A stretch of DNA of 64,000 nucleotides from Parerythrobacter jejuensis. Its GTDB lineage: Bacteria; Pseudomonadota; Alphaproteobacteria; Sphingomonadales; Sphingomonadaceae. The stretch spans positions 372,001 to 436,000 of the forward strand of contig NZ_BAAAZF010000001.1 in assembly GCF_039536765.1 (NCBI RefSeq). The letters are read 5' to 3'. The position numbers and the translations under genes are program-made. How positions within the stretch are numbered: position 1 is the first letter of the stretch; each line of letters opens with the position of its first letter. The notes beneath the pieces were generated by a model. The model was given only the letters and a program-made list of their open reading frames with translations. It made no database searches and was not told the DNA's origin. Positions 50,871 through 53,788 of the stretch are shown piece after piece.

Positions 50871-50890
50871 GTTGACATAGGTGTCAGTAG
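50871..50890 (+). promoter_or_regulatory. Palindromic operator-like element A before a COQ4-like gene
   Basis: GTTGACATAGGTGTCAGTAG contains TGACA-N4-TGTCA and a built-in TTGACA. Eighteen of 20 bases are the same as in element B at 52531-52550, which precedes the paralogous gene. A repressor site of the TetR type overlapping the -35 element is the simplest reading. Confidence 0.6.
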
Positions 50891-50928
50891 TAACAGGGCT
50901 AACGTCCCTCTAACGATGTCGCCGAACC

Positions 50929-51771
50929 ATGAACCAAGAAAGCTCCCGCACTGCGCAAATGCACCCGATTGAAGCGGGGCGCGACGGCACCATTTTCCGG
51001 CATCCGGATCGACCTGTTCCCAAACGCAATCTTGGCGCAGCGCTCAGGCACTTTCAGGAATTGCTGAAAGACAAGGAAGACACCACCCATGTCTTCAAGA
51101 TCTTCGAAGCGCTTCCGTCCAGAAACTTCCTGCCCGATGCCAAGCGTTTCTCGCTGAGCGCGCAAGGTGAAAGTGTCCGCTCGACAGAGCCCTATTTGCC
51201 ACCGATCCTGGATGATCATGACGCGCTGCGGGACATGCCTGCCGGGAGCGTGGCGCAGGCCTATTGCGATTTCATGGAAAGCGAAGGTCTCACCGCTGCC
51301 GGCCTCGTAGAAGAGGCTGACAGGACTTGGCCCGATCGCCCGAAATATGGCGACCTTGTAGAATGGTATGCCCACCGTCGGCGCGACACCCATGATCTGT
51401 TGCACGTACTGACCGGGTACGGCCGTGACGCACTGGGCGAACAATGCGTTTTGGCCTTTACCCACGGCCAGAATGGTGGGTTTGCGCACCTCTTCATCGC
51501 CTATCTTGGCGCGATCAATGTGAAGAAAGGGATCAAGAGCAGCGCCCCGGTATTGCGTGCCGTGCGTCAGGCACACCGCGCAGGTCAGGGTGCCCCGCGG
51601 ATTTGCGAAATGCCGGTGCGTCACTTGCTCAAGATGCCGCTTAGCGAGGCGCGTGAACTTCTTCGCGTGGGTGAGCCGACACACTATGAGCGATGCCATC
51701 AAATCTGGCGTGCCCGCGGTGTTGACCCTTACGATCTTCTCGGAAACGCTGGCGAAGTTGCGTCTGCCTAG
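50929..51771 (+). CDS. COQ4-like protein, paralogue A
   Basis: The product (280 aa) belongs to the Coq4 family, which in mitochondria organises ubiquinone synthesis and has recently been tied to ring decarboxylation and hydroxylation. The zinc motif HDxxHx11E is exact: His155, Asp156, His159 and Glu171 in THDLLH and the following Glu. A hydrophobic lipid-binding surface is expected in the flanking helices. It shares about half its core residues with the gene at 52586, including GLTAAGLVEE and LTGYGRD. ATG at 50959 is an alternative start. Element A lies 38 bases upstream. Confidence 0.87.
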   Translation: MNQESSRTAQMHPIEAGRDGTIFRHPDRPVPKRNLGAALRHFQELLKDKEDTTHVFKIFEALPSRNFLPDAKRFSLSAQGESVRSTEPYLPPILDDHDALRDMPAGSVAQAYCDFMESEGLTAAGLVEEADRTWPDRPKYGDLVEWYAHRRRDTHDLLHVLTGYGRDALGEQCVLAFTHGQNGGFAHLFIAYLGAINVKKGIKSSAPVLRAVRQAHRAGQGAPRICEMPVRHLLKMPLSEARELLRVGEPTHYERCHQIWRARGVDPYDLLGNAGEVASA

Positions 51772-51795
51772 AACCTGCTGGCTTAGCCCCGCAAT

Positions 51796-52482
51796 CTAGA
51801 TCCAGCTGGCGATCTGCTCGATCGGTTTTTTACGAATGGCATGGGTGGGCACGGTCGCCCCTTCGGCCGGTTGGCCTACCACCACGATCATCAAGGGTTT
51901 TTCATGCTCGGGCCGGCCGCATAACTCGCGCAGGAAGCCCATCGGCGAGGGCGTGTGGGTCAAGGTTGCCAGGCCTGCCTCGTGCAGGGTGGCGATCATC
52001 ATGCCGCAGGCGATGCCGACGCTTTCGTTGACATAGTAGTTTTGCGTCTTGCCGTCCTCCTCGATCCCGCCCTTGCGCTGGGCAAAGACCACGATCAGCC
52101 ACGGTGCTGTTTCGAGGAAAGGCTTGTCCTGGTCTGTCCCGATGGGCGCGAGTGCATCCAGCCATTCTTCGCTCGCCTTCGGTTTGCCACCGTCGGCGCC
52201 ATAGAACCGGCGTTCTTCTTCCTCGGCTGCTTCGCGAACTGCCCGCTTGTTCTCTGGCGAGCCGATAACGGTGAAATGCCAGGGTTGGTGGTTCGCACCA
52301 TTGGGGGCGCTTCCGGCGGCCAATATGGCCTGCTCAATCACTTCACGCGGAACGGCCGCATCGGAGAAATAGCGACAGGTGCGGCGCTGCGAGAGCTTTT
52401 CGCGCATCGCAGTCGCGCGTTGAACACGTTCAGCGTCATCCATCGGGGGAAGCGAGTACGGTACGGAATCGTGATGTTTCAT
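51796..52482 (-). CDS. Nitroreductase family protein
   Basis: The product (228 aa) is an FMN-dependent oxidoreductase: QRRTCRYFSDAAVPREVIEQAILAAGSAPNGANHQPW forms the flavin-binding N-terminus, with the conserved SR-like basic pair as RR, and GIACGMMIATLHEAGLATLTHTP the second. The type is nearest to the BluB/iodotyrosine deiodinase-like branch, but the substrate is unknown. It is convergent with COQ4-like gene A and divergent from gene B; operator-like element B lies in the 103-base divergent region and could control both directions. Confidence 0.88.
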   Translation of the reverse strand: MKHHDSVPYSLPPMDDAERVQRATAMREKLSQRRTCRYFSDAAVPREVIEQAILAAGSAPNGANHQPWHFTVIGSPENKRAVREAAEEEERRFYGADGGKPKASEEWLDALAPIGTDQDKPFLETAPWLIVVFAQRKGGIEEDGKTQNYYVNESVGIACGMMIATLHEAGLATLTHTPSPMGFLRELCGRPEHEKPLMIVVVGQPAEGATVPTHAIRKKPIEQIASWI

Positions 52483-52530
52483 GGCGCGCCCTATCGGCGG
52501 TCTTGGCGCGAATGGAAAGCCCGCAGCGTT

Positions 52531-52550
52531 GTTGACATGCGTGTCAGTAG
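52531..52550 (+). promoter_or_regulatory. Palindromic operator-like element B in the nitroreductase/COQ4 divergent region
   Basis: GTTGACATGCGTGTCAGTAG contains TGACA-N4-TGTCA, matching element A at 18 of 20 positions. TTGACA at 52532 is followed after 18 bases by AAATTA, a fair promoter for the plus-strand gene. The symmetric core would let one dimeric repressor cover both divergent promoters. Confidence 0.6.
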
Positions 52551-52585
52551 GGCGCAAATTACGCGCGGATAGAGGAACAGCGTCC

Positions 52586-53380
52586 ATGGCATTGATTGAT
52601 CGTCCCGTCGTGCACCCCGATCGCAAGGTGGTAGGATTTCGGCCCGTGAAGGCCTTGCGCCATTTCGGCAAGCTGGTGGCCGACAAAGAAGACACCGAGC
52701 AGGTATTCCACATCATCGACGCGCTCAAGGGCAAGAAGAGCCTGCGCCAGATGGAGGGTTTCGTAGCTACGTCCGAGGCGCAGACCTTGCTCGAACGGAA
52801 CGAAGAATTGCCCGCGATTCTGGATGATCATGCCCGATGGACTGAGTGCGCGCCCAATTCGCTGGCCCGCAATTATGTGCGCTTTATGGAGCGCGAAGGC
52901 CTGACGGCTGCCGGGCTGGTCGAAGAAAGCCGGAAGTTCAAACCCGAGAGCGAGCTCTTTCACGACCTCTATGAATGGTATGTCGAACGGCTGCGAGATA
53001 CGCATGATCTGTTCCACGTTTTGACCGGATACGGGCGGGACCCGCTGGGGGAAGTGTCCCTACTGGGGTTCAGTTACGAACAGAACCATTCACCGGGCGT
53101 GCTGTTCATCGCCTATATGGGCACGCGGCAGGTGAGGAAAGAAAGCGGGACCAATGCCCCCGTTTTCGAAGCTTTGCGCGAGGGCCGCAAACTCGGGCGC
53201 GAGGCCAAGAAACTGGCCCATCAGGATCTGATGGCATTGATGCCGCGCGACATTGACGAAGTGCGTGCCGAACTGAACCTTGGCGAGCCACGGATCTACA
53301 AGGAATGCCTGCGCCAGCTGGAGGCCGAAAACTACGAAGGTCTTGTGGTCGAAGGCGTAGGCGAAAAAGCCGCCGCCTGA
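52586..53380 (+). CDS. COQ4-like protein, paralogue B
   Basis: The product (264 aa) has the same Coq4 fold and an exact HDxxHx11E motif (His140, Asp141, His144, Glu156) with THDLFHVLTGYGRD around it. Clear differences from paralogue A, for example LLGFSYEQNHSPGVLFIAYMGTRQV in place of LAFTHGQNGGFAHLFIAYLGAINV, indicate an old duplication. ATG at 52586 is chosen for the AGAGGAA site nine bases upstream; the frame is open to 52481. Operator-like element B lies 35 bases upstream. Its stop abuts that of the convergent DUF3052 gene. Confidence 0.88.
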   Translation: MALIDRPVVHPDRKVVGFRPVKALRHFGKLVADKEDTEQVFHIIDALKGKKSLRQMEGFVATSEAQTLLERNEELPAILDDHARWTECAPNSLARNYVRFMEREGLTAAGLVEESRKFKPESELFHDLYEWYVERLRDTHDLFHVLTGYGRDPLGEVSLLGFSYEQNHSPGVLFIAYMGTRQVRKESGTNAPVFEALREGRKLGREAKKLAHQDLMALMPRDIDEVRAELNLGEPRIYKECLRQLEAENYEGLVVEGVGEKAAA

Positions 53381-53788
53381 TCAGCGATCTTCCTTGGGGA
53401 TCACGAATTTCAGGCCAGACCATATCTCGTCTACCGCGCATTTCTTGGTGTCGATGAACCCGCTGGCGATCCCGATACTCTGGACCTCGGCCTGGTCGAG
53501 CGCCGTTTCTTGGCCTGAACCCTTCTTGGGCCAGCTCACCCAGACTTGTCCGTCCTTCGCGATGTGCTGACGCAAGCTGGCAAGCTTATTCGCCAGATCA
53601 TCGGCACCCGTGACGAAGATATGCGCGGCATCGATGCCTTCATCGGGCGTGCCTACAAAGATCAGCTCAAGCGCATATTCGTCGATCTCGTCCGCGATAT
53701 TCTCCGGCATGGCATCGAACCAGACCCGCTGCTCATCACGCAGTGACAGCTTCTTGGCGAGCGGCGTATCGGAATAGCCAGCCGTCAA
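53381..53788 (-). CDS. DUF3052 family protein
   Basis: The product (135 aa) begins with the family pattern AGYSDTPLAKKLSL and contains AHIFVTGADDLANKLASLRQHIAKDGQVWVSWPKKGSG and VDEIWSGLKFV, all typical of DUF3052 proteins. These are small cytoplasmic proteins without known function; distant resemblance to methyltransferase folds has been suggested for some. It starts three bases after the purL stop on the same strand and so is probably cotranscribed with purL. Confidence 0.85.
   Translation of the reverse strand: MTAGYSDTPLAKKLSLRDEQRVWFDAMPENIADEIDEYALELIFVGTPDEGIDAAHIFVTGADDLANKLASLRQHIAKDGQVWVSWPKKGSGQETALDQAEVQSIGIASGFIDTKKCAVDEIWSGLKFVIPKEDR

Follow-up and report, generated by a model that had tools for sequence, protein, structure and literature searches.

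A conserved TetR-linked operator places COQ4-like genes in a predicted lipid oxidation regulon of Parerythrobacter jejuensis and related Sphingomonadales

We analysed a window of the Parerythrobacter jejuensis genome (the whole 64-kb stretch, positions 372,001 to 436,000 of contig NZ_BAAAZF010000001.1) in which two COQ4-like genes, here termed COQ4-A and COQ4-B, are each preceded by a closely similar palindrome. Sequence comparison makes it likely that lipid or isoprenoid oxidation, with the COQ4-like proteins taking part, is controlled by an autoregulated repressor of the TetR family. The candidate regulon, that is, the operator, its conservation, its targets and its linkage to a TetR gene, is well supported by these comparisons; from it we infer that the TetR protein binds the operator and acts as a repressor, the class of its inducer and the reaction of the COQ4-like proteins. 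The initial annotation of the window had proposed a small regulon under one repressor. The single repressor is strongly supported by sequence, through a TetR gene that itself bears the element and through the co-occurrence of TetR, operator and COQ4, but the regulon is larger than was stated. No description of COQ4 under a TetR regulator was found in the literature searched.

A palindrome shared by two COQ4-like genes

The features under discussion are the following.

50871..50890, no strand assigned: operator A (candidate), TTGACA-N4-TGTCAGTAG, full letters GTTGACATAGGTGTCAGTAG, upstream of COQ4-A
50929..51771, plus strand: COQ4-A, divergent Coq4 family protein of 280 amino acids (PF05019, 35.6 bits; HDxxHx11E)
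51796..52482, minus strand: flavoprotein of the nitroreductase superfamily, predicted iodotyrosine deiodinase (IYD) type, 228 amino acids (PF00881; solved relatives 5ko7 and 4ttb)
52531..52550, no strand assigned: operator B (candidate), letters GTTGACATGCGTGTCAGTAG, common to COQ4-B (plus) and the divergent flavoprotein gene (minus)
52586..53380, plus strand: COQ4-B, divergent Coq4 family protein of 264 amino acids (PF05019, 44.8 bits; HDxxHx11E; model resembles 6e12)
C1:2872831-2873430, same contig, outside the window: TetR-family gene, divergent from a PF10118 gene (TetR_N, 30.6 bits against a cut-off of 24)

As initially described, elements A and B are identical at 18 of 20 positions, both contain TGACA-N4-TGTCA, and no other such site is present in the 64-kb window. 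Each lies in front of one COQ4-like gene, and both genes exceed the Pfam gathering cut-off for PF05019 (22.9 bits). Element B also falls in the promoter region of the flavoprotein gene, 48 bp ahead of the ATG at 52482 on the minus strand; a longer reading frame is open upstream of this codon, so the spacing depends on the choice of start. No regulator gene adjoins either element. A search of the whole genome (2.9 Mb) retrieved TTGACA-N4-TGTCA at four places, namely A, B, a CYP153-type cytochrome P450 gene and the gap between the TetR and PF10118 genes, and the backward pattern, used as a control, at none.

One part of the initial description did not hold. The TTGACA within the element had been read as a -35 box, but no sigma-70-like promoter was found at the elements (mean of 0.6 in shuffled sequences) and the hexamer is not kept in relatives, where the left half-site is often TTAACA, TTTACA or CTGACA. 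On these two results the -35 reading is rejected, and the conserved feature is therefore the palindrome itself.

A distant TetR gene bears the element

The TetR-type gene carrying the element, which had been suggested as a search target, is located ∼2.45 Mb from elements A and B. The gap between it and the divergent PF10118 gene contains two tandem palindromes 25 bp apart (L009:5710-5754), one of the TGTAAGTA type and the other of the TGTCAGTA type. Paired palindromes of this kind recur in relatives. Of 16 genomes in which site clusters were classified, 14 were covered at the TetR/PF10118 locus, and all 14 have a cluster there.

Named TetR models matched the regulator weakly, all far under their cut-offs; no solved relatives of the TetR profile were found at E up to 1e-5, and searches with the PF10118 protein returned only chance-level matches to solved structures. 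FasR- and PsrA-type proteins are TetR-family autoregulated repressors of lipid metabolism regulons. The system described here is like theirs in its TetR_N domain and in combining a palindrome in its own divergent promoter region with dispersed targets. It is unlike them in the weak matches to named TetR models, in the lack of a solved relative and in its targets, which include COQ4 and an IYD-like protein.

Members of the candidate regulon

At up to 2 mismatches, the element occurs at seven loci of the P. jejuensis genome, six of which are common to the four genomes of the genus that were examined (a fifth, G199, is 73% complete and lay outside the element search). These six core loci are TetR/PF10118, COQ4-A, COQ4-B with the IYD-like gene, CYP153, a FadD-type acyl-CoA ligase and a protein of ∼100 residues. 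In genomes G158 and G096 the sites are confined to these six, all of which are occupied; beyond the six, P. jejuensis has a second P450, and G002 has a gene for an outer-membrane protein and one further site. Operator A is kept before COQ4-A in all three of the other genus genomes examined. In twelve genomes, chosen for holding COQ4 or the operator, the pattern TWTTGACANNNNTGTMARTA at up to 2 mismatches gave 129 strand-wise matches, compared with 7 for the control (both summed). Occurrence at many unrelated places in the genome, initially named as grounds for doubting the regulon, was thus not observed: the sites are few and mostly consistent. When 70 site clusters from the 16 genomes were classified, 61 fell into seven gene classes each found in at least two genomes, a proportion biased upward because the 64 underlying loci were hand-chosen, weaker sites were omitted (eight, with 2 mismatches each, in ten of the twelve genomes) and the classes were drawn from the sites themselves. 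Sites of G006 and G019 were left out of this count, and G054, G169, G108, G128, G195 and G142 are represented by some of their sites only.

The P450 gene stands under an operator at C1:2009750, and the list of best solved relatives of its product is led by 6hqw (named Cytochrome P450), CYP153D17 (5h1z) and CYP153A7 (3rwl). It is like the CYP153 alkane hydroxylases in having two of them among its closest solved relatives, and unlike them in its TetR-linked operator. In the case of the acyl-CoA ligase the operator lies across the called start codon at seven of nine loci, which fits repression by steric block. At L128, L135, L140, L145, L150, L157 and L162 the operator covers the ligase start and codes for the first residues, MDVS or MDVN. 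The ∼100-residue protein (MSVAGTYDTVVKSPMGDQ...) is found under an operator in seven genomes (L127:2645-2944 in P. jejuensis, L134, L139, L144, L151, L159 and L167); its P. jejuensis copy has no Pfam or NCBIfam match. A weaker site, with 2 mismatches to another pattern and beyond the limit of the TWTTGACANNNNTGTMARTA search, lies over the start of a gene for a 4HBT thioesterase in P. jejuensis (L014:1512-2449). That gene is followed by a reading frame resembling a carotene hydroxylase, so named by look only.

Conservation and co-occurrence in relatives

Absence of the element from relatives had also been named as grounds for doubt; it is present in them. At up to 1 mismatch, TATTGACANNNNTGTCARTA occurs in 115 of 199 genomes of the family, compared with 2 control matches across all 199. 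The exact pattern TTGACANNNGTGTCA yielded 64 rows from 51 of these genomes, and 8 control matches by our own count. An orthologue of the TetR gene, defined by E up to 1e-20 with a profile built from 11 rows, is present in 156 of the 199. The operator (up to 1 mismatch) was found in 113 of the 156 TetR-positive versus 2 of the 43 TetR-negative genomes (Fisher 1e-16, kinship ignored). Regulon-type COQ4 (profile E up to 1e-90, a cut chosen after the score gap was seen) is encoded by 79 of the 156 and none of the 43, and 76 of these 79 genomes hold the operator somewhere. Other COQ4 types only are present in 26 genomes, of which 14 are without the TetR gene and 10 have the operator.

The regions upstream of COQ4 were compared in named relatives, the best 80 of 480 loci from a public genome collection, labelled as Erythrobacter, Porphyrobacter, Qipengyuania, Altererythrobacter, Pontixanthobacter, Parerythrobacter or unnamed members of the same order or class. 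A looser operator consensus (up to 2 mismatches), composed after the results with the stricter pattern had been viewed, precedes 117 of the 134 COQ4 genes, and its backward control none of the 134; the stricter pattern at up to 4 mismatches precedes 110, with a control of 0. Because the regions were aligned on their best operator match, the half-sites owe part of their high information content to the alignment, and the backward control is the fair comparison.

The looser operator is present in all 61 cases in which COQ4-B is accompanied by the divergent IYD-like gene and before 6 of 6 COQ4-B genes in other settings. Where COQ4-B stands in tandem behind COQ4-A it is without the operator in 8 of 12 cases, and these eight are all the operator-less COQ4-B genes; they probably depend on transcription from the COQ4-A promoter, which would account for the missing operator. 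For COQ4-A the looser operator was recognised in 46 of 55 genes. At six Qipengyuania loci (L235, L239, L247, L253, L256 and L261) COQ4-A has no recognisable operator and COQ4-B retains one.

The COQ4-like proteins and the flavoprotein

COQ4-A and COQ4-B share 41% identity, and no third PF05019 match was found in the P. jejuensis genome; the start of COQ4-B is best placed at 52586. The zinc motif HDxxHx11E (HD-x2-H-x11-E), initially described as exact, is intact in both, and its H, D, H and E are invariant across 22 aligned rows. A Coq4 fold is predicted for COQ4-B: its model (predicted local distance difference test 83.6, predicted template modelling score 0.81) matched Nostoc Alr8543, solved with oleic acid and magnesium (6e12), with a Z of 19.6 and a root-mean-square deviation of 2.9 over 204 aligned residues, and 3msq with a Z of 17.5, the next listed row having a Z of 2.5. 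In a tree from which two rows were omitted, one of G006 and one of Cupriavidus, the two proteins belong to separate clades (supports 99/96 and 93/99) and thus look like old paralogues. They resemble animal COQ4 and Alr8543 in a Pfam score above the cut-off, the motif and, for COQ4-B, the predicted fold. They differ from these in forming a divergent subfamily of two paralogues, with a TetR-linked operator shared with lipid oxidation genes. COQ4-B is adjoined by a gene for a DUF3052 protein (53381-53788 of the window, minus strand).

The gene between the two had been annotated as a nitroreductase. The family assignment stands (PF00881), but the solved relatives indicate a closer resemblance to iodotyrosine deiodinases. 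At E up to 1e-30 there were five matches among solved sequences, and four of these bear the name iodotyrosine dehalogenase or deiodinase. The highest-scoring, 5ko7 (207 bits), is listed as Nitroreductase, and we take it to be a bacterial IYD; 4ttb scored 153 bits. In both alignments with solved relatives the flavoprotein retains Glu, Tyr and Lys at candidate substrate-binding positions, presumably those that bind substrate in human IYD. It is unlike the iodotyrosine deiodinase branch in the name of its top match and in sharing an operator with COQ4-B. The protein thus resembles the IYD type, and its dehalogenase activity is putative.

Proposed mechanism and points against it

In the proposed mechanism the distant TetR protein would bind TATTGACA-N4-TGTCAGTA palindromes and repress its own promoter region together with a dispersed regulon of COQ4-A, COQ4-B with the IYD-like flavoprotein, the CYP153-type P450, the FadD-type ligase, PF10118 and the ∼100-residue protein. 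A hydrophobic ligand, derived from a fatty acid, alkane or isoprenoid, would release it. The P450 would then hydroxylate and the ligase activate the lipid, and the COQ4-like proteins, as lipid-pocket metalloproteins of the Alr8543 type, may act on a long-chain or prenylated intermediate by binding or decarboxylating it.

Several observations weigh against this mechanism. In 43 of the 156 TetR-positive genomes the operator was not found even with 1 mismatch allowed, and 9 of the 55 COQ4-A genes in the named relatives are without the operator. The genomes are akin, and the p-values for co-occurrence therefore overstate independence; the late choice of the cut for regulon-type COQ4 counts on the same side. 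Six of the 70 chosen site clusters belong to no recognised class and three more to classes found in one genome only. The absence of UbiD and UbiX from the P. jejuensis genome leaves room for a ubiquinone role. Finally, genome G004 (genus g4) encodes a further TetR from this subfamily with its own 2-mismatch operator; the element may therefore be read by several regulators.

This last point bears on an alternative which we consider rather unlikely, namely that several paralogous TetR proteins of one subfamily, with similar recognition helices, govern overlapping regulons instead of one. Besides the second TetR of G004, which carries SHANVLHHFGSA, two TetR matches were found in a few further genomes, and the operator occurs in two variants, TGTCAGTA and TGTAAGTA. 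However, at E up to 1e-8 the TetR profile matches the P. jejuensis genome only once. Moreover, COQ4-B, the ligase gene and the TetR gap each have examples of both variants within the genus, which argues against separate target sets.

A possible role in ubiquinone synthesis

According to a second alternative, the COQ4-like proteins make ubiquinone, decarboxylating C1 in place of UbiD/UbiX, and the TetR protein tunes quinone supply to lipid oxidation. P. jejuensis has neither UbiD nor UbiX, whereas among 24 genomes of other families in the order UbiD is present in 21 and UbiX in 23. Animal COQ4 decarboxylates C1 with zinc (PMC7615680), and HDxxHx11E is retained here. However, 18 of the 35 genomes of family f1 (P. 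jejuensis and 34 others) have no PF05019 match, and these 18, 14 of them at least 90% complete, are also without UbiD or an above-cut-off UbiX (one of them, G029, has a weak UbiX match); another route must therefore serve there. Across these 35 genomes no UbiD match was found in 33 and no UbiX match in 32, the exceptions being G011 with both, G030 with UbiX and a below-cut-off UbiD, and G029 with a weak UbiX.

A further point comes from family f5 of the same order. In G203, G215 and G220, three of the four f5 genomes, a canonical COQ4 (f5 scores 87-104 bits) is divergent from the best relative of the regulon TetR (E 6.7e-25 to 8.2e-18), and the gap between them contains a similar palindrome, TATTGACA-N4-TGTCGATA. 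These three genomes also hold UbiD and UbiX, so the TetR-linked COQ4 is no plain substitute there. The fourth genome, G209, has COQ4, and neither such a TetR nor the palindrome was found in it; nor was the palindrome found at the second COQ4 of G220. Taking into account also that the regulated neighbours are lipid oxidation genes, we regard the ubiquinone explanation as quite unlikely. As a side observation, in G011 (6.9 Mb, seven PF05019 matches) another regulator-like gene, TetR by look only, is divergent from another COQ4 type (L280:5171-6563).

The weakest alternative, a mere shared promoter sequence or chance repeat, has in its favour only that the element contains TTGACA and is highly improbable: the hexamer varies among relatives, the search for a sigma-70-like promoter was negative, and the counts in the 199 family genomes (115 against 2 control matches in all), in the COQ4 upstream regions (117 of 134 against 0 with the backward consensus) and in the twelve chosen genomes lie far above their controls, so that chance repetition is rejected.

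COQ4 relatives in catabolic gene clusters

COQ4 relatives with ∼36-37% identity are encoded within gene clusters on one Sphingobium and one Sphingopyxis plasmid (L277, L278). One strand of these clusters carries genes for a P450, a ferredoxin and a thioesterase, and the COQ4 strand those for two acyl-CoA dehydrogenases, an acyl-CoA synthetase and an oxidoreductase dependent on flavin adenine dinucleotide. In the Sphingobium cluster a gene annotated 'transporter' and its neighbour correspond to a thiolase and a ChsH2-like protein with an oligonucleotide/oligosaccharide-binding fold; ChsH2 belongs to steroid side-chain degradation. A similar gene set surrounds the third COQ4 of the genus mate G158 (L275). 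Judged by predicted gene content, this other COQ4 subfamily is located in steroid-like catabolic gene clusters. Mycobacteria are not known to make ubiquinone. For Mycobacterium abscessus, a published table assigns a Coq4 gene to a probable operon whose other members encode an epoxide hydrolase, a luciferase-like monooxygenase and an alcohol dehydrogenase (PMC11925935). Since the closest fold relative was solved with oleic acid and relatives occur in catabolic clusters and in the M. abscessus operon, and in view of the zinc-dependent C1 decarboxylation described for animal COQ4 (PMC7615680), we infer a lipid- or isoprenoid-directed role for the COQ4-like proteins. The initial suggestion of a specialised use beyond ubiquinone synthesis is thus likely in the light of the co-regulated genes and the catabolic clusters, with some room left for ubiquinone by the missing UbiD and UbiX.

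Implications

The function of COQ4 was long unclear, and the ubiquinone-related names of its bacterial relatives derive from homology. To go by their gene context, the COQ4-like proteins described here are probably switched on for the handling of oily molecules and not solely for coenzyme Q synthesis. Tentatively, and with more doubt than confidence, we extend this to the bacterial COQ4 family, which may largely not be a ubiquinone family but one of inducible lipid-pocket metalloenzymes of hydrocarbon, isoprenoid or steroid-like oxidation, placed in part under a dedicated TetR before these Sphingomonadales families parted. Were that so, COQ4-B and the IYD-like protein could act as a pair, decarboxylating and reductively dehalogenating a long-chain or prenylated, possibly halogenated phenol. 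The missing UbiD and UbiX suggest that nothing yet accounts for the C1 decarboxylation step of ubiquinone synthesis in a large part of family f1; the literature searched yielded nothing treating UbiD, UbiX, Sphingomonadales and ubiquinone together. TetR regulons are already known as a kind; this one includes COQ4 and an IYD-like protein. For many environmental bacteria, a large group, it defines a candidate TetR operator. By joining COQ4-like proteins with CYP153, an acyl-CoA ligase and a dehalogenase-like flavoprotein, it also provides a testable setting for the substrates of these proteins.

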